Assembly (NCBI GenBank): GCA_029554865.1
Contig: JAKPUX010000056.1
Location: forward strand, 62,001 to 126,000
Reading direction: 5' to 3'
Source of the DNA: a bacterium
Lineage (GTDB): Bacteria; Zhuqueibacterota; Zhuqueibacteria; Residuimicrobiales; Residuimicrobiaceae
DNA length: 64,000 bases
Shown: piece after piece, positions 37,253 to 45,633 of the stretch
Layout: every line of letters begins with the position of its first letter
Position numbering within the stretch: the first letter of the stretch is position 1
Position numbers and translations under genes: made by a program
Notes under the pieces: model-generated
What the model was told of the DNA's origin: nothing
The model's input: the letters and a program-made list of their open reading frames with translations, nothing else
The model's database searches: none

Positions 37253-38746
37253 TTACTCCTCCTCGCTGTCGAGGAGCTCCTCCTCCTCTTCCTCGAGATC
37301 ATCGGGCGGCTCCTCCTCCCCGTTCTCCGCGGCGGCGACGCTGTTGCGCGGCCAGATGATGCCGTGCGCCTCGATGAGCCGGTAGATGGTCTTGCGGTTC
37401 AGCCCGGCCACCTTGGCCACCTTGGCGATGGTCTTGTATTTGTCAAGCAGATTCTCAAGGTACTGCTTTTCCCACTGCTTGATGATGGCTGCCTTGGCCT
37501 GCTTGAAATCCATATCCTCGGTAACCTGAACGAACATCTTTTTCTGATGGGGCAGAATCTCCTCCGGCAGGTCATCCAGGTCGAGTTCGCTCTTGCGCGC
37601 CAGGGCGACCATGTGCTCCATGACGTTCTGCAGCTGGCGCACATTGCCAGGCCAGTTGTGCTGCTGCAGGGCAAGGAGTGCATCACTCGAAATTGTCTCC
37701 ACCTCGACCGGACCGAACTGGCGGTACTGGCGCAGAAAATGGTAGACCAGCAGGGGGATGTCCTCGCGGCGTTCGCGCAGGGGGGGAATCGACAGCCGGA
37801 TGACCTGCAGGCGGTAAAAGAGATCCTCCCGCAGCCGCTTCTCCTTGACCAGCACATCTGGATCGCAGTTGGTGGCGCTGATGATGCGAACATCGATCTC
37901 GCGCTCCTTGACGCTCCCCAGCCGGCGCACCTTGTGGTCCTGCAGTACCCGCAGCAGCTTGTGCTGCAGGTCAAAGCTCACCTCCGACATCTCGTCAAGA
38001 AAGAGCGTCCCCTTGTCAGCGGTCTCGAAAAGCCCGGGCTTGTCGATGTTGGCCCCGGTGAAGGCCCCCTTGACATGGCCGAACAGCTCGCCCTCGAGCA
38101 GATTGTCGGGCAGGGCGCCGACAGCGACCGGCACAAAGGACTCATCCCTGCGCTGGCTGTGATAATGAATGCCCCGGGCGATGATCTCCTTGCCGGTGCC
38201 GGTCTCGCCGTAGATCATCACTGAGGCGTTGGTCGCCGCCACCCGCTTGGCCTTCTCGAAAAGAACGCGCATGACCTCGCTGCCCCCGATGGCCCCGTAA
38301 AAAAGGGTGTCGTCAGTCAGATCGAGACGGCTGCGCAGATAGGCGTTCTCACGCTGCATGCGCGCAAACTTTAAGCCGCGTTCGATCGGCAGCAGGATGT
38401 CATGGTGGGTCTCAACCTTCTGGATATAATCAAAGGCCCCCTTCTTGGTCGCCTCGACCACATCGGGGATGTGGCTGTAAGCGGTGTAGAGGATCACCAC
38501 CGCATCCGGATCGATGCGGCGCACCTCCTCCAGGACCTGGATTCCATCCTTGTGATTGGGCATATAGAGGTCCGAAAGAACCAGCAGGGGACGCTCCCGC
38601 GCGAAAAGGCGAATGCCGTCTTCGGCATTGGTGGCTGTAATGCAGCTGTACTGGCTCTTCTTGAGCATCTTGACCAGTGAATCGAGAACAGTGCGTTCAT
38701 CATCGATGACCAGAATGGAACGGTCACTGGTCTTCTTGTCATTCAT
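37253..38746 (-). CDS. NtrC-family sigma54-dependent response regulator with acidic C-terminal tail
   Basis: Receiver ILVIDDE...LSDLYMP...; AAA+ GETGTGKE and GAFTGA; Fis-type HTH TIAKVAKVAGLNRKTIYRLIEAHGI; tail PPDDLEEEEEELLDSEEE. Confidence 0.95.
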   Translation of the reverse strand: MNDKKTSDRSILVIDDERTVLDSLVKMLKKSQYSCITATNAEDGIRLFARERPLLVLSDLYMPNHKDGIQVLEEVRRIDPDAVVILYTAYSHIPDVVEATKKGAFDYIQKVETHHDILLPIERGLKFARMQRENAYLRSRLDLTDDTLFYGAIGGSEVMRVLFEKAKRVAATNASVMIYGETGTGKEIIARGIHYHSQRRDESFVPVAVGALPDNLLEGELFGHVKGAFTGANIDKPGLFETADKGTLFLDEMSEVSFDLQHKLLRVLQDHKVRRLGSVKEREIDVRIISATNCDPDVLVKEKRLREDLFYRLQVIRLSIPPLRERREDIPLLVYHFLRQYRQFGPVEVETISSDALLALQQHNWPGNVRQLQNVMEHMVALARKSELDLDDLPEEILPHQKKMFVQVTEDMDFKQAKAAIIKQWEKQYLENLLDKYKTIAKVAKVAGLNRKTIYRLIEAHGIIWPRNSVAAAENGEEEPPDDLEEEEEELLDSEEE

Positions 38747-38752
38747 TCCGTG

Positions 38753-39781
38753 CTATCCTTTCTTGACCATGTTCTTGGCGACGGGAAACAGCAGACGTGC
38801 CGTCGTGCCGCTGCCGGGCACACTCTCCAGTTCAAGGAAACCCTTGTAGCGGGCGGCGATGGTGTAACTGATCGGCAAACCCACACCCAGATGGTCTGTG
38901 GATTTGGTCGAATAAAAGGGTTCATAAATCCTCTTCATCTCGGCGGCCGCAATGCCCGCACCACTGTCGCTAATGGATACCGCGGCCATGCCGTCACTGC
39001 TCCCGCAGCGGATGATCACCTCTCCCCCCTCCGGCGAGGCCTCGACGGCGTTGCGCAGCAGATGGAGCAGACACTGCTCGAGGAGGATGTCATTGGCATA
39101 GATGAGTGAGGAGACAGGACCGGCGCTTACACTGATCTGCACCCCACGCGGAGCGGTGAGCAGCTGGATGACCTCCACAGCCTTTTCAAGCACCGCCTCG
39201 AGCTGAACCAGCTTGCCGCTGTTTCCCTCCTCACGGCTGAAGGATTCCAGGGCTTGCGTGACTCGGGAGATGGCGTAGACCTGCTCCTGCAGCTCGGCCA
39301 GCTCGGCTCGCACCCTGGACCACTCCGGGCCGGGCTCCTCCTCCAGAACCAGACAACCGATCCCGTTGAGGACAGCTGCAAGGGGATTGTTGAGCCGGGA
39401 GGCGAGCTTGTGGGCAAAGGTCGAGACCTCCTCCATCCGGCCGCCCAACTCCTGCTGGTGCTGCTGCCGCTTCTCCCGGGTGACATCCGTCAGCACGATG
39501 GTCGCCCCCTCGATCCGTTCCCCCTCGACCAGGGGCTCGGCCAGCCAATGCAGGGCCAGCAGCGGCGAGGGGAAGATCTTTTCACCGCCGGCGCTCCGGC
39601 CATGCCGGACCGCTTCGGCCAGGGCTTCGGCCGCGTCGCCCAGACCGAGGGCCTGCAGACGGCGATGGAGCTGCTGCCCGCTCTTGAGGCTCTCACCGAG
39701 GGTCCGCTCCAGCACATCCCCGAAACTGTGACGAAGGCGCAGCTGGCGGTCGACAATAAATTTTTGTACTCTTTCTTTCAC
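38753..39781 (-). CDS. Sensor histidine kinase with intact ATPase domain and atypical H-box
   Basis: FAHKLASRLNNPLAAVLNGI; N-box LLRNAVEASPEGG; G1 SDSGAGIAAAEM; G2 HLGVGLPISYTIAARYKG. Confidence 0.85.
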   Translation of the reverse strand: MKERVQKFIVDRQLRLRHSFGDVLERTLGESLKSGQQLHRRLQALGLGDAAEALAEAVRHGRSAGGEKIFPSPLLALHWLAEPLVEGERIEGATIVLTDVTREKRQQHQQELGGRMEEVSTFAHKLASRLNNPLAAVLNGIGCLVLEEEPGPEWSRVRAELAELQEQVYAISRVTQALESFSREEGNSGKLVQLEAVLEKAVEVIQLLTAPRGVQISVSAGPVSSLIYANDILLEQCLLHLLRNAVEASPEGGEVIIRCGSSDGMAAVSISDSGAGIAAAEMKRIYEPFYSTKSTDHLGVGLPISYTIAARYKGFLELESVPGSGTTARLLFPVAKNMVKKG

Positions 39782-39841
39782 TCAAACCTCTGCTTAAGGA
39801 TGCATGGCATGGGAGCATGAGCAAGGGCTGCGGCGGCGCCT

Positions 39842-41338
39842 TCAGACGGGCCGGGAGAGCAGCTTGCCCTCCGCGGCGAGCAGAATGACGATTTCCGTTG
39901 ATCCGTCATGAAGCCGGCGCATCCTGAAGCCTCCCCCCAGCTCGGCAATGATCGCATAAGCGAGGGCGAGGCGGAGATGGGCCGACCGCCAGGGCGGCTG
40001 GGAGGGGAGCGGTTCGCTCCATCCCGGCGCCGATCCGCTGAAGACCAGCCGCATCGCCAGACCGCCCTCCGCATCGGGCTCCACGGACAGACGAACGGAG
40101 CCGGCCGCGCCGGCCTGGTCCAGGGCGTGCAGGAGCAGGCCGGAGAGCCCTTTCTGCAGACGGATGCCGTCACAGGCCAGGGGCGGCAGCTCCTCGGGCA
40201 TCTCCAGCTCGATGCGGACATCCTTGTAGGGCCGCCGCCACTCCGCCACGAAGCGCGCATTCTTGATTAGTTCGGCCAGGTCGCACTCCTCGATCCGGCT
40301 CGAATCGTCCGATCCCATTGGCGCGATCTCCTCCAGGATGGTGTTGATCTCCTCGACCTGATGGGTGAAGAGGTCGATTGCGCCCTGGAATTTGTGCACT
40401 CCCCCAGGCTCATAAAGGTTGTCGTTGCGCAGCATGTCCAGCTCGCACATCAGGGCGGTGAGGGGATTACGGATGTCGTGCACGATCCGAGCGGTGAACT
40501 GGCAGAGGTTGGTCATCTGCAGGGCGAAAAGATTCTGTGCCCCCTCCCGTTCCGTGGAGAGTTCAGGCAGGGCCGCCACCAGGGCCAGGGTCAGCTCGGG
40601 ATTGGCCGGCAGGGGGGCGATCCAGAAATGGCAGGGTCCGGCCGCTTCACGCTCTCCGGAGACCAGCCTGCCTTCACCGTCCTGCAGGGAGGCGGCGAGG
40701 GCTGCCGCGGCCTGCGCGCGCACAGAGGCTGGCAGCATGGTCGAGAGCGGCCGGTCGAGGGCGTCGGCCGCGTAGACCGAGCGCCAGGCCGCGTTGACAT
40801 AGAGCACCGCGCCGTCGGCCGCCGCCGCGGCCACGGCAAAGGGCAGGGCATCCACCAGGGCGGAAAGCATGCGCACCATCGCCCGCTGTTCATCGGCGAC
40901 CAGCTGATTGAGGGGGTCCTCCCCCGCCGCGCCCGGCTCGCTTTGCCCGCCTCCCGCTTCATAAAAGCAGACTGCCGCACCCAGGAGACGCCCCTCGATG
41001 GCGAGGGGCGAGACCTCGATGCGGCAGTTGAGACGGGGATGACGCAGATGGAGCTGACGGTGCTTGCCCTTGACCAGGGTGAACTGGATCGCTTCGTGCA
41101 GCTCCGCGTCGTTGAGTCCGGGATGTTCAAAGAGGGAGAGGCCGAGCAGCCCCTGCCCCGGCACCCCGGTGAACCACTGCTGCCGGCTGTTGACCCACTG
41201 GATCCGCCCCTCCGCGTCGATGAAGATGATGCCGACGCTGATGTGCGTAAGCAGCTGGCCCGCCAGCAAGGTCATGAATGAAGAGGCGCCCGCCTGAGAA
41301 TCCATCGCGTTGATCACTATTCCGTTAAAAACCCGCAC
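39842..41338 (-). CDS. PAS-containing histidine kinase-like protein with canonical H-box but degenerate ATPase domain
   Basis: PAS-like GIIFIDAEGRIQWVNSRQQWF; H-box IVHDIRNPLTALMCELDML; C-terminal region lacks recognisable N and G1 boxes. Confidence 0.8.
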   Translation of the reverse strand: MRVFNGIVINAMDSQAGASSFMTLLAGQLLTHISVGIIFIDAEGRIQWVNSRQQWFTGVPGQGLLGLSLFEHPGLNDAELHEAIQFTLVKGKHRQLHLRHPRLNCRIEVSPLAIEGRLLGAAVCFYEAGGGQSEPGAAGEDPLNQLVADEQRAMVRMLSALVDALPFAVAAAAADGAVLYVNAAWRSVYAADALDRPLSTMLPASVRAQAAAALAASLQDGEGRLVSGEREAAGPCHFWIAPLPANPELTLALVAALPELSTEREGAQNLFALQMTNLCQFTARIVHDIRNPLTALMCELDMLRNDNLYEPGGVHKFQGAIDLFTHQVEEINTILEEIAPMGSDDSSRIEECDLAELIKNARFVAEWRRPYKDVRIELEMPEELPPLACDGIRLQKGLSGLLLHALDQAGAAGSVRLSVEPDAEGGLAMRLVFSGSAPGWSEPLPSQPPWRSAHLRLALAYAIIAELGGGFRMRRLHDGSTEIVILLAAEGKLLSRPV

Positions 41339-41409
41339 CGCTTCCCAACTGATGCCTCAGCAGCGAACACCTTGCCCGGGGAACGATTCTGACTGTGCTG
41401 TTCCGTCTA

Positions 41410-41438
41410 AATATAGCCAAAATGTCCCTTATGCGCAA
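41410..41438 (-). promoter_or_regulatory. Candidate sigma70-type promoter for the sensor kinase/NtrC genes
   Basis: Minus strand TTGCGC-17 bp-TATATT, in the AT-rich divergent intergenic region. Confidence 0.45.
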
Positions 41439-41628
41439 CATAATTTTTATTTATTTACTAAATATTTTATTTTTTCGCCATATTTGTGACATTTATGCCC
41501 CAATGACGTTGGCCCTGGCAGCCCGCCCCTTTTCTCTTGAATTCATTACAAAAAAAGTCTATCTTATTCCTGCCGCCTTGCTTCTCTTCGCCCTGGCCGG
41601 CGCTGCCCCTCCACATTCTTGCACAGGA

Positions 41629-42594
41629 GTGATTCTGCCGCCCCCGAAAACCTCATCCCCGCAGCGCACATGCATCGGCTGCCGCAGCTGCAAGCCTGCC
41701 GATGAGCTCATGCGCCTGGCCTACGATTCCGAGCAGGCCGTCCGCTTCGATCCGCGCCGTGAGCTGCCGGGCCGCGGCTGTCACCTCTGCCCCGACCAGC
41801 GCTGTCTCGAAAGCGCGCTGCGGAGCCGGGCTTTCGCCCGCGCCTATCGCCGCGCAGTTCCCGTATCAGCGCTTGCAGGACTGAAAGATGAGTTTGCCGC
41901 CGCTCGGACGGCCTGGATCGCCGCCTTCAGGCGGGGACGCCGCACCGCCCTGATCACAGAGCGCCTCGAATCCGCCTTCGGCGAACCCGTCTGGCAATCC
42001 GGTGAGGATCCCCTCGCCGCCCTCATCCTCACCGTGCTCTCGCAGAGCACCAACGACCGCAACCGCGACTTCGCCTTCCAGCGTCTGCGCACAGCCTTTC
42101 CCGATTGGGAGTCCGTGAGCAGAGCCCCGAGCACAGCCATCGCCGAAGCGATCCGCCCGGCCGGACTGGCCAACCAGAAGAGCGTGCGCATCCGCGACAT
42201 CCTGCACTGGGTCAAGGCCACCTACGGCGGCTTCGACCTCAGCCCCCTCTGCGGGCAGGACCCCCGCGAGGTCAGCGCGACCTTCATGCAGCTCAAGGGG
42301 ATCGGCATCAAGACCATCAGCGTGGTGCTGATGGTGGCCTGCGGCGCCAATGTCTTCCCCGTCGATACCCATGTCCACCGCATCTGCCAGCGCCTCGGCC
42401 TGGTGCCGCAGGGGCTGAGCGCTGAAAAGACCCATGAGCTCATGCAGCCCCTCGTCCCGCCGGGCAAGAGCTACTCCCTGCATATGAATTTTCTCAGGCT
42501 GGGCCGGACCATCTGCCAGGCGCGCAAGCCCCGCTGCGCCGAATGCCCGGTCGCCCTCTGGTGCCCCTCATCTTCCCTATTTGAAAGCGAATAA
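41629..42594 (+). CDS. YlxR (DUF448) domain fused to endonuclease III-like HhH-GPD DNA glycosylase/AP lyase
   Basis: RTCIGCRSCKPADELMRLAY...LPGRGCHLCPDQRCLESAL (YlxR); LTVLSQSTND, LKGIGIKTISVVL, FPVDTHVHRICQRLG, C-X6-C-X2-C-X5-C (EndoIII). The ORF opens at 41395; GTG 41629 is a plausible in-frame start. Confidence 0.85.
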   Translation: MILPPPKTSSPQRTCIGCRSCKPADELMRLAYDSEQAVRFDPRRELPGRGCHLCPDQRCLESALRSRAFARAYRRAVPVSALAGLKDEFAAARTAWIAAFRRGRRTALITERLESAFGEPVWQSGEDPLAALILTVLSQSTNDRNRDFAFQRLRTAFPDWESVSRAPSTAIAEAIRPAGLANQKSVRIRDILHWVKATYGGFDLSPLCGQDPREVSATFMQLKGIGIKTISVVLMVACGANVFPVDTHVHRICQRLGLVPQGLSAEKTHELMQPLVPPGKSYSLHMNFLRLGRTICQARKPRCAECPVALWCPSSSLFESE

Positions 42595-42597
42595 CCC

Positions 42598-45500
42598 ATG
42601 AAGCGCTTGATCACCCTCTTCCTGCTGGCGGCGGTCCTCTCCGCCTTTGCCGCCCCGATTGATGTCACCTTCCGTCACTACCCGACGGCCCCGACCGTGC
42701 AGCGCGCCTTCGTCCCCGGCAGCTTTAACAACTGGGGCCCTAACGCCAGCGGCGTCATCACCACCGGCGCCCCCTCCGAGATGGCCTGGGCCGACAGCCT
42801 CGGCTGCTACATCAAACAGTATACTCTCGAGACCGGCGTTACCTACAATTACAAGTTCCATGAGCACCTCAACGCCGCCGGATCGCAGTGGCAGTGGCTG
42901 CGCGATCCCCTCAATCCCCTTATCAACACCGCCGACAACAACAACTCTTTGCTCACCCCTGAGCCGATCATGCTCTTCGAGATCAGGCCGGCCGAGGGAG
43001 CCCTGATCACCGACCAGGGTGCCTGGCTCACCGCCGGGGCCTTCGCCGCCGCCGGCGATTCCCTGCTCCTTTCCGCCTCGACCATCATCATCGACGGCGC
43101 GGTGGCCTCCACCCTGGAAGGATGCTGGCTGGGCGGCCTGGGGCTGATCCATTACCCACTCCCTGCCCTGGCCAACGGCAGCCACAGCCTCACCATCCGC
43201 CTGGCTGCCCGCAGCGGGGCCGTCGTCGAGGAGACGGTCACCTTCTCGACCCTGACCGGGGATCTTTTCTTCATGACGCCCTCATGCGACAGCCTCCTGG
43301 CCGCGGAGAGGATCGTGCGCTGGAAGGTCAACCGCCCCTTCGAGCAGATCGCCGCCATCAGCCTGCGTCAGTCGGGCAAAGCCGCCGTCGATATCATGCC
43401 TGAGCCGGACGGGGAATACGCCCGCAGCGTCGCCTGCAGCCGCGGGGTCAACACCTTCGTGCTCAGCCTGACCGACCACGCCGGCGCGACCATCCACAGT
43501 GACACCCTCTTCCTGCGCTATCCCCTGCCGCAGCACCCGGTGCCCGGCGTCGCCCTCTCGCGCAGCGGGGACAAGATCAAAATTACCGGCAGCGCCCGCG
43601 ATCCGCAGAACAAACCGATGAGCTATCGCTGGTCCACTTCGGTGCTCAATCCGGCCCTCCTGCCGGGAGTTAATGGCAGCAGCGAACTGGTGCTGGAGAT
43701 CGATCCCCCCACACGGCCCGGGGATTACAGCCTCGAGCTCACCGCCACCGACGCCGACGGCCTCAGCAGCAGCGCCGAGTCCTTCTTCACCATCCTCGCC
43801 GACGGCAGCGTCGTTCTGCCCGGCTCCGCGACGGTGCCGCAGTGGGTGCGCGAGGCCCGCATCTACTGCATCTTCTTCAAGGCCTTCTCGGCAGGCGGAC
43901 GCATCGCCGAAGCCATCCCCCGCCTGGGCTATATCAAGGCGATGGGCTTCAACACCATCTGGGTGCTGCCGGTGATGGACGTCGAGGGTAATATTGACCA
44001 GGGCGCCAATATCGGCTACAACATTATCGATTTTTTCCATGTCGATCCGGACTACGGCACAGATGAGGATTTCCGGGAGTTCGTGCGGCGCGCCCACGAG
44101 GCCGGGCTGCGGGTGATCCTCGACGTCACCCCCAACCACTCCAGCCGCTCCCATCCCTGCGCCCTCGACGCCCGCGCCAATCGCAAATACAGCCGTTATT
44201 ACGATTTTTTTCAACACGAACCGATCAACCACGACACCAACGGCCTGGGGCAGTCGATCTCCGGCGATGGCATCGTCTATTACAGCGCTTTTTCCGATGC
44301 CCTGGTCAACTGGAACTGGAGCGACGCCGAGGCGCGCAGCTACATGCTCGAGGTCTACAAGTACTGGCTGCGCGAATTCGATATCGACGGCTTTCGCTTT
44401 GATGTCTGGTGGGGCCCCCACCGCCGTTACGGAGTTGGCGCCTTCGACAAGCCTCTGCGCCTCGCCCTGCGCACGGTCAAGTCGAATATCCTCCTGCTCG
44501 GCGAGACCGCGGGCACCGGCAGCGGCACGGAGGATAACTATGCCGACCAGGGCGGCGGCATGGACATGGGCTACGACTGGAACCTCTTCGGCGGCCTCAG
44601 CGCCTACCCCAATCCCGGCGCCCTGCAGATCCGCCTCTATAACTCCGGATTTCGTCCGGGACCCAACAGCTTTTTCCTCCGTTTCCTGGAGAACCATGAC
44701 GAGGACCGCGTCATCTACCGCTATGGCAGCGGTGAAAAGACCATCCCGGTCTCGACAGCCCTCTTCATGGCCACCGGCACCCCCCTGCTCTACGCCGGCC
44801 AGGAGGCCGGAATGGGCCTCTACGGCGGCACCCTCGACGCCCGCCGCCGCGGCACCATCAACTGGTCCGGTCTCTACGCCGCCATCCTGACCCCGCATTA
44901 TCAAAAACTGGCCCAGATCCGCGCCCAGTTCCCCGCCTTCCGCACCCAGTTCGAGGATAGCAACAGCGACGGCCGCATCATCGGCCCCGACGAGGATGTG
45001 CAGCGCCGCCTCGACCAGGGCAGCGCCACCAGCTACGTCATGGCCCGGCCCTGGCTCGACGCCAACGGCCTGGTGGTGATGAATTTCGCCGGCACCGCAC
45101 AGGAGTTTACCATAGCCCTCAAGGCCGGGGAGTGGATGCGTTTCAGCGCCGGATTTTCAGCGCAGGGGAGCTATTGGCTCAACAACCTCTACGACAATAC
45201 CAGCCGGCCGGTGAGCGGGGCGGAGCTCGACACCCTGAAGGTGAGCCTGCCACCTTATGGCGTGGCCATCTACACCATCGCCACCGCAGAGCAGCGGCTG
45301 GTGCTGCCCGACCTCGAGGTGGGCGTTGAGCACAAGAGCCCGGCGGAACTGCCGCAAGCATTCCACCTCGCCGGCAGCTGGCCCAATCCCTTCAACAGCG
45401 CCACCGCCATCCGCTTCACCCTGCACCAGGCGGAGCGGATCGAGGCGGAGATCTTTGACGCCCTCGGCCGGCGCGTGCGCAGCCTGACTGCGGCCGCCCT

Positions 45501-45633
45501 GCCGGCCGGCGAACATGAACTGCACTGGGACGGACGTAATCAGACGGGAATGCACTGCCCGAGCGGCCTCTACTTCCTCAGGCTGCGCCACGGCAGCCAG
45601 ACCGCCGTCCACAAGATGGCCCTGGTGCGCTGA
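42598..45633 (+). CDS. GH13 alpha-amylase family enzyme with N-terminal CBM48-like region and C-terminal T9SS sorting domain
   Basis: VPGSFNNWGPN; DVTPNHSSRSHP, IDGFRFDVWWG, LLLGETAG, RFLENHDEDR; C-terminal GSWPNPFNSATAIRFTLHQAERIEAEIFDALGRRVRSL. Confidence 0.9.
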   Translation: MKRLITLFLLAAVLSAFAAPIDVTFRHYPTAPTVQRAFVPGSFNNWGPNASGVITTGAPSEMAWADSLGCYIKQYTLETGVTYNYKFHEHLNAAGSQWQWLRDPLNPLINTADNNNSLLTPEPIMLFEIRPAEGALITDQGAWLTAGAFAAAGDSLLLSASTIIIDGAVASTLEGCWLGGLGLIHYPLPALANGSHSLTIRLAARSGAVVEETVTFSTLTGDLFFMTPSCDSLLAAERIVRWKVNRPFEQIAAISLRQSGKAAVDIMPEPDGEYARSVACSRGVNTFVLSLTDHAGATIHSDTLFLRYPLPQHPVPGVALSRSGDKIKITGSARDPQNKPMSYRWSTSVLNPALLPGVNGSSELVLEIDPPTRPGDYSLELTATDADGLSSSAESFFTILADGSVVLPGSATVPQWVREARIYCIFFKAFSAGGRIAEAIPRLGYIKAMGFNTIWVLPVMDVEGNIDQGANIGYNIIDFFHVDPDYGTDEDFREFVRRAHEAGLRVILDVTPNHSSRSHPCALDARANRKYSRYYDFFQHEPINHDTNGLGQSISGDGIVYYSAFSDALVNWNWSDAEARSYMLEVYKYWLREFDIDGFRFDVWWGPHRRYGVGAFDKPLRLALRTVKSNILLLGETAGTGSGTEDNYADQGGGMDMGYDWNLFGGLSAYPNPGALQIRLYNSGFRPGPNSFFLRFLENHDEDRVIYRYGSGEKTIPVSTALFMATGTPLLYAGQEAGMGLYGGTLDARRRGTINWSGLYAAILTPHYQKLAQIRAQFPAFRTQFEDSNSDGRIIGPDEDVQRRLDQGSATSYVMARPWLDANGLVVMNFAGTAQEFTIALKAGEWMRFSAGFSAQGSYWLNNLYDNTSRPVSGAELDTLKVSLPPYGVAIYTIATAEQRLVLPDLEVGVEHKSPAELPQAFHLAGSWPNPFNSATAIRFTLHQAERIEAEIFDALGRRVRSLTAAALPAGEHELHWDGRNQTGMHCPSGLYFLRLRHGSQTAVHKMALVR

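Follow-up and report, generated by a model that had tools for sequence, protein, structure and literature searches.

Both of the protein families considered here are known ones. The YlxR protein of Bacillus subtilis, now characterised as RnpM, binds the RNA of RNase P and, nonspecifically, DNA, and has a modulating effect on RNase P in vitro (PMC11898665; PMC6200986), and a passage of PMC12475003 cites the involvement of a cyanobacterial homologue in tRNA maturation. The usual but not obligatory site of its gene is between nusA and infB. A likely precedent for YlxR sharing one polypeptide with the protein of an adjacent gene is NCBIfam PRK09190/NF006622, a 227-aa RNA-binding protein which we take to be a fusion of YlxR with L7Ae. 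Gene fusion and conserved neighbourhood are together a classic hint that two proteins cooperate. The second family is that of the HhH-GPD DNA glycosylases, including canonical endonuclease III (Nth, TIGR01083) and the EndoIII-1 of Deinococcus radiodurans (DR2438; PDB 4UNF, 8A5C, 8A5F; NF053634), which is mostly monofunctional, weaker than EndoIII-2 and able to process single-stranded DNA as well (PMC9268735, PMC10523315).

In the window, that is the whole 64,000-nucleotide stretch that was analysed, the two families are joined in one gene (Table 1). The most probable reading, to which we assign a probability of about 0.75, is a genuine fusion of RnpM (YlxR) with an EndoIII-1-type glycosylase, of single origin, in which each half would keep its ancestral job. 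No description of a YlxR-glycosylase fusion was found in the full-text literature searched, and within that literature the view of the preliminary description, that the fusion seems uncharacterised, holds. Both halves belong to known families; their combination is new as far as that literature reaches.

Table 1. Features of the fused gene and its neighbours in the window.
Feature	Position	Strand	Basis or remark
NtrC-type sigma-54 response regulator, divergent operon	37253..38746	-	gene order comparison
Second histidine kinase (HATPase), divergent operon	38753..39781	-	gene order comparison
PAS histidine kinase, divergent from the fusion	39842..41338	-	gene order comparison; neighbour conserved across the order
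Fused gene, ylxR(rnpM)-endoIII1-like glycosylase, probable extent	41629..42594	+	ORF, Pfam, GC3, motifs; ORF begins at 41395
YlxR/RnpM domain (PF04296), six Cys	41665..41868	+	Pfam; motifs RTCIGCR (first base 41665) and GRGCHLC (first base 41770)
Linker, C-terminal YlxR helix into glycosylase N-terminal helix	41869..41970	+	sequence and predicted structure; in-frame ATG/GTG/TTG absent
HhH-GPD DNA glycosylase domain, EndoIII-1 (DR2438) type	41971..42591	+	PF00730, PDB match, Foldseek
Catalytic lysine (GIGIKT)	42310..42312	+	alignments
Catalytic aspartate (VDTH)	42364..42366	+	alignments
[4Fe-4S] loop C-x6-C-x2-C-x5-C	42514..42564	+	sequence motif; Cys codons begin at 42514, 42535, 42544 and 42562
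Secreted alpha-amylase-family protein	42598..45633	+	starts 3 bp past the fusion stop; next gene in 4/4 fused genomes

The open reading frame (41395-42594, forward strand) runs through 399 codons without interruption, and its translation contains both domains in a single frame, as the preliminary description had claimed. Each lies far above its Pfam cut-off: YlxR (PF04296) at residues 91-158 of the frame (E 2e-20, 72.9 bits, cut-off 26.9) and HhH-GPD (PF00730) at residues 213-356 (E 4.5e-13, 49.9 bits, cut-off 26.2). The complete YlxR motifs, the catalytic Lys and Asp and the Fe-S cysteine set named at that stage were all located. As to the extent first given for the gene, the stop end stands, whereas the first 78 or so codons (41395-41628) are probably non-coding. 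Their GC3 is 0.42, versus 0.73-0.87 further downstream, and homologues begin only about 14-20 residues ahead of the YlxR motif, so the translated protein is probably of about 320 aa. The real start probably lies near 41629-41635 (GTG, or CTG behind AGGAG), its exact position being inferred. Upstream, the divergent kinase/kinase/NtrC operon (37253-41338, reverse strand) accompanies ylxR throughout the family and its sister families, and the reason for this pairing is not obvious. Downstream, the alpha-amylase-family protein bears a FlgD/Por-type C-terminal domain, and its gene is followed in the window by a GH43 gene.

The glycosylase half possesses the catalytic lysine and the [4Fe-4S] cysteine pattern by which bifunctional EndoIII-type enzymes are recognised, and shares the HhH-GPD fold, the Lys/Asp pair and the Fe-S loop with canonical Nth. 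By sequence and fold, however, it is nearest to Deinococcus EndoIII-1, which has these catalytic residues and the Fe-S loop in common with it: this enzyme is the top PDB sequence match (E 2.7e-42), the best three Foldseek matches are all EndoIII-1 structures, and NF053634 is the top-scoring NCBIfam model with 147.3 bits. Since the cut-off of this equivalog is 400, the substrate may differ. The score against TIGR01083 is 91.1 bits, far under the cut-off of 211.7, and the PDB match and the NCBIfam scores rule out an identity as canonical Nth; the earlier label of an endonuclease III-type enzyme is thus right for the HhH-GPD domain with its Lys, Asp and Fe-S residues, but the type is that of DR2438. 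Deinococcus EndoIII-1 has no YlxR domain, and its unusual loop residues Arg61 and Tyr100 are replaced by Ser and Leu in the fused protein, so that the activity need not match that of EndoIII-1. A separate canonical Nth scoring above the TIGR01083 cut-off is encoded in four of the six genomes of the family (G049, G050, G051 and G053). The preliminary description had suggested looking for a canonical nth and a second ylxR in the genome of the window; no such Nth was found in this genome (G000) or in G052, drafts that are 94% and 90% complete, at which its absence is not certain. The fused glycosylase may accordingly be the main EndoIII-like enzyme in these two genomes. The remaining HhH-GPD proteins of G000 are MutY and a MagIII-like protein.

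The YlxR half resembles RnpM in being a complete domain with both signature motifs and in its single genomic copy. Against the RnpM equivalog model NF047356, with a cut-off of 80 bits, the window protein scores 57.8 bits (E 8e-16) and the other fused proteins 57-68 bits, so it is not certain that they modulate RNase P. Among PDB sequences there is only a weak match, to 1G2R (E 0.24). The search for a second canonical ylxR in G000 found none, the fused copy being the sole YlxR of the genome, and nusA and infB are adjacent, separated by 63 bp with no ylxR between them; the order rimP-nusA-infB-ylxP-rbfA-truB (gene names inferred from order and sequence) is otherwise intact. These observations indicate that the fused YlxR is the relocated sole copy, and rule out an additional one. 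Of the initial portrayal of YlxR as a nucleic-acid-binding protein encoded between nusA and infB, the binding thus stands, now specified by the work on RnpM, while the position does not apply at this locus, where the gene is linked to the glycosylase.

The identical fusion occurs in three further assemblies (G051, G052 and G053) that represent two further genera. The family of the window genome (f1) comprises six genomes, namely these four and two of genus g2 (G049 and G050), and the flanking gene order is conserved around the fusion in all four. An artefact of assembly or base calling that merged two adjacent genes has to be weighed, given that G000 is a draft of 408 contigs, that all four fused genomes are fragmented (220 to about 550 contigs) and that genus g2 holds two separate genes at the same spot. 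Yet the joined frame and the spacer length are repeated in four separate genomes, and protein-like constraint spans the junction. Interruption of the frame by a stop or frameshift between the two domains had been named at the outset as the finding that would overturn the fusion; it was looked for, and the frame is intact in four independent assemblies. Because three other assemblies carry the same fusion, chance and artefact are excluded; the artefact reading is barely credible. In searches of plasmids and phages, the matches listed concern the glycosylase half only, and none of them covers 80% of the query; a contig search restricted to close relatives found one order-level relative.

Purifying constraint acts on both domains. 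For the pair G052/G053, dN is 0.36 in the YlxR half and 0.14 in the glycosylase half, with dS saturated (>1.3), so that dN/dS ratios are approximate only. In the phylum survey ylxR was undetected in 24 of 82 genomes, some of which keep an EndoIII-1-type glycosylase (e.g. G039, G040, G042), and ylxR has thus seemingly been lost repeatedly. This frequent absence speaks for a neutral compaction of the operon, in which the halves are independent and one of them, most likely YlxR, may drift to loss; YlxR also evolves faster than the other half, and its scores are somewhat lower when it is fused. The fused YlxR nevertheless retains its motifs, its dN/dS stays well under 1 across three genera, and the ratio of YlxR to glycosylase rates follows the same pattern as in unfused pairs. 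Neutral compaction is regarded as rather unlikely.

The origin of the fusion can be followed in the gene order of the relatives. The gene after ylxR is ylxQ (L7Ae) in sister families and other classes; next comes, often with an antisense queT in between, the same glycosylase. Among the 25 genomes that have both ylxR and the glycosylase, 20 carry them on a single contig and strand, no more than 1 kb apart. A profile model left ylxQ undetected in all six genomes of the family (6/6), whereas the same model finds it adjoining ylxR in three other families of this order (f2, f3 and f4). In contrast to the YlxR-L7Ae fusion, where the partner binds RNA, YlxR is here joined to a DNA glycosylase in a family without a detected ylxQ. 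In genus g2 the two genes lie in different frames, abutting in G049 and overlapping in G050, where the ATG of the glycosylase falls within the last part of ylxR. In the IF2 tree the fused genomes group together as a single clade (97/94), with g2 as sister (family support 92/91). In the single-gene tree of the glycosylase the fused proteins are not one clade, G051 being placed elsewhere with weak support; this tree is too low in signal for dating the fusion, and IF2 was used instead. The single IF2 clade makes one fusion event the simplest account, and the sequences suggest, most simply, that the fusion arose once, in a Calditrichota family. As the outgroups are unfused, the polarity is that of fusion and not of a later split in g2. 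Loss of the intervening gene(s) between ylxR and the glycosylase would have been followed by a frame-changing indel or a stop loss that joined two full-length proteins. The fusion is fully accounted for by a merger of two genes that lay next to each other across the phylum beforehand, so the link from RNA binding or transcription to base excision repair that the preliminary description inferred, like any functional coupling, is compatible with it but not required. In the unfused relatives an alkyltransferase-like (PF01035) gene, with the usual PCHR cysteine replaced (PWHR), lies on the opposite strand after the glycosylase (L075:6618-6947, L076:5934-6269), and the two form a small DNA-repair cluster.

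The YlxR motif and the FGxP motif of the glycosylase are spaced almost constantly, by 104, 104, 104 and 103 residues in the four fused proteins. In-frame ATG, GTG or TTG codons between the domains were sought, and none is present in three of the four fused genes (G000, G052 and G053), so the glycosylase is apparently produced only as part of the fusion. Internal initiation, by which the glycosylase would also be made alone and the fusion would be only part of the output, could use starts at rare codons, and G051 has a single in-frame TTG near the domain boundary; with the usual starts missing from the other three genes, this explanation is highly improbable. When the window protein and that of G051, the most divergent fused protein, were modelled with AlphaFold, pTM reached 0.90 and 0.89 and pLDDT 95 and 94, with a helical linker in both; the two input alignments have rows in common, and the arrangement is judged from pTM and pLDDT. 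With one domain of 75 residues in a protein of 320, such values suggest a fixed arrangement of the two domains. The predicted arrangement leaves coupling of the halves possible without demonstrating it.

According to the favoured reading of a fusion with ancestral functions, the N-terminal domain would perform the RnpM job of the cell (binding of RNase P RNA, modulation of RNase P, nonspecific binding of DNA). The C-terminal domain would act as a glycosylase like EndoIII-1, for the most part monofunctional, and remove bases that are oxidised or damaged in other ways. The fusion would set a 1:1 stoichiometry of both halves, and YlxR may lend the glycosylase extra affinity for nucleic acid. Allosteric or RNA-directed coupling of the halves is possible and unneeded to explain the fusion. 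A new, coupled function would go further: the RnpM domain would direct the glycosylase towards DNA that is transcribed or rich in RNA, or else RNA or RNase P would regulate the glycosylase, resulting in an RNA-linked or nucleoid-targeted base excision repair. Consistent with such a function are the binding of both RNase P RNA and DNA by YlxR of B. subtilis (PMC11898665, PMC6200986), the action of EndoIII-1 on single-stranded DNA (PMC9268735, PMC10523315), the one confident two-domain arrangement predicted for two divergent fused proteins, the constant linker length and a linkage of ylxR with the glycosylase that is older in the phylum than the fusion. On the other hand, a neighbourhood that has simply been frozen can account for both linkage and fusion, the rate at which YlxR evolves is not lower in the fused state, and the linked genomes hold unrelated neighbours too (queT). 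A physical coupling, in which the fused protein would tie RNase P or RNA metabolism to base excision repair and its RnpM domain would position or regulate the glycosylase where DNA is transcribed or bound by RNA, is doubtful, and a coupled function of either wording is held to be distinctly unlikely.

The cellular role of RnpM is still being worked out, and in the literature searched no connection of RnpM with DNA repair was found. A sole RnpM that is fused to a glycosylase and kept over three genera, with the unfused state retained as well, offers a system in which to ask about a DNA-side function of RnpM. If the coupling were true, the older ylxR-glycosylase pair in Calditrichota would represent this functional link between genes that are still separate; if the halves are independent, the locus would be a clean case of fusion by operon erosion.
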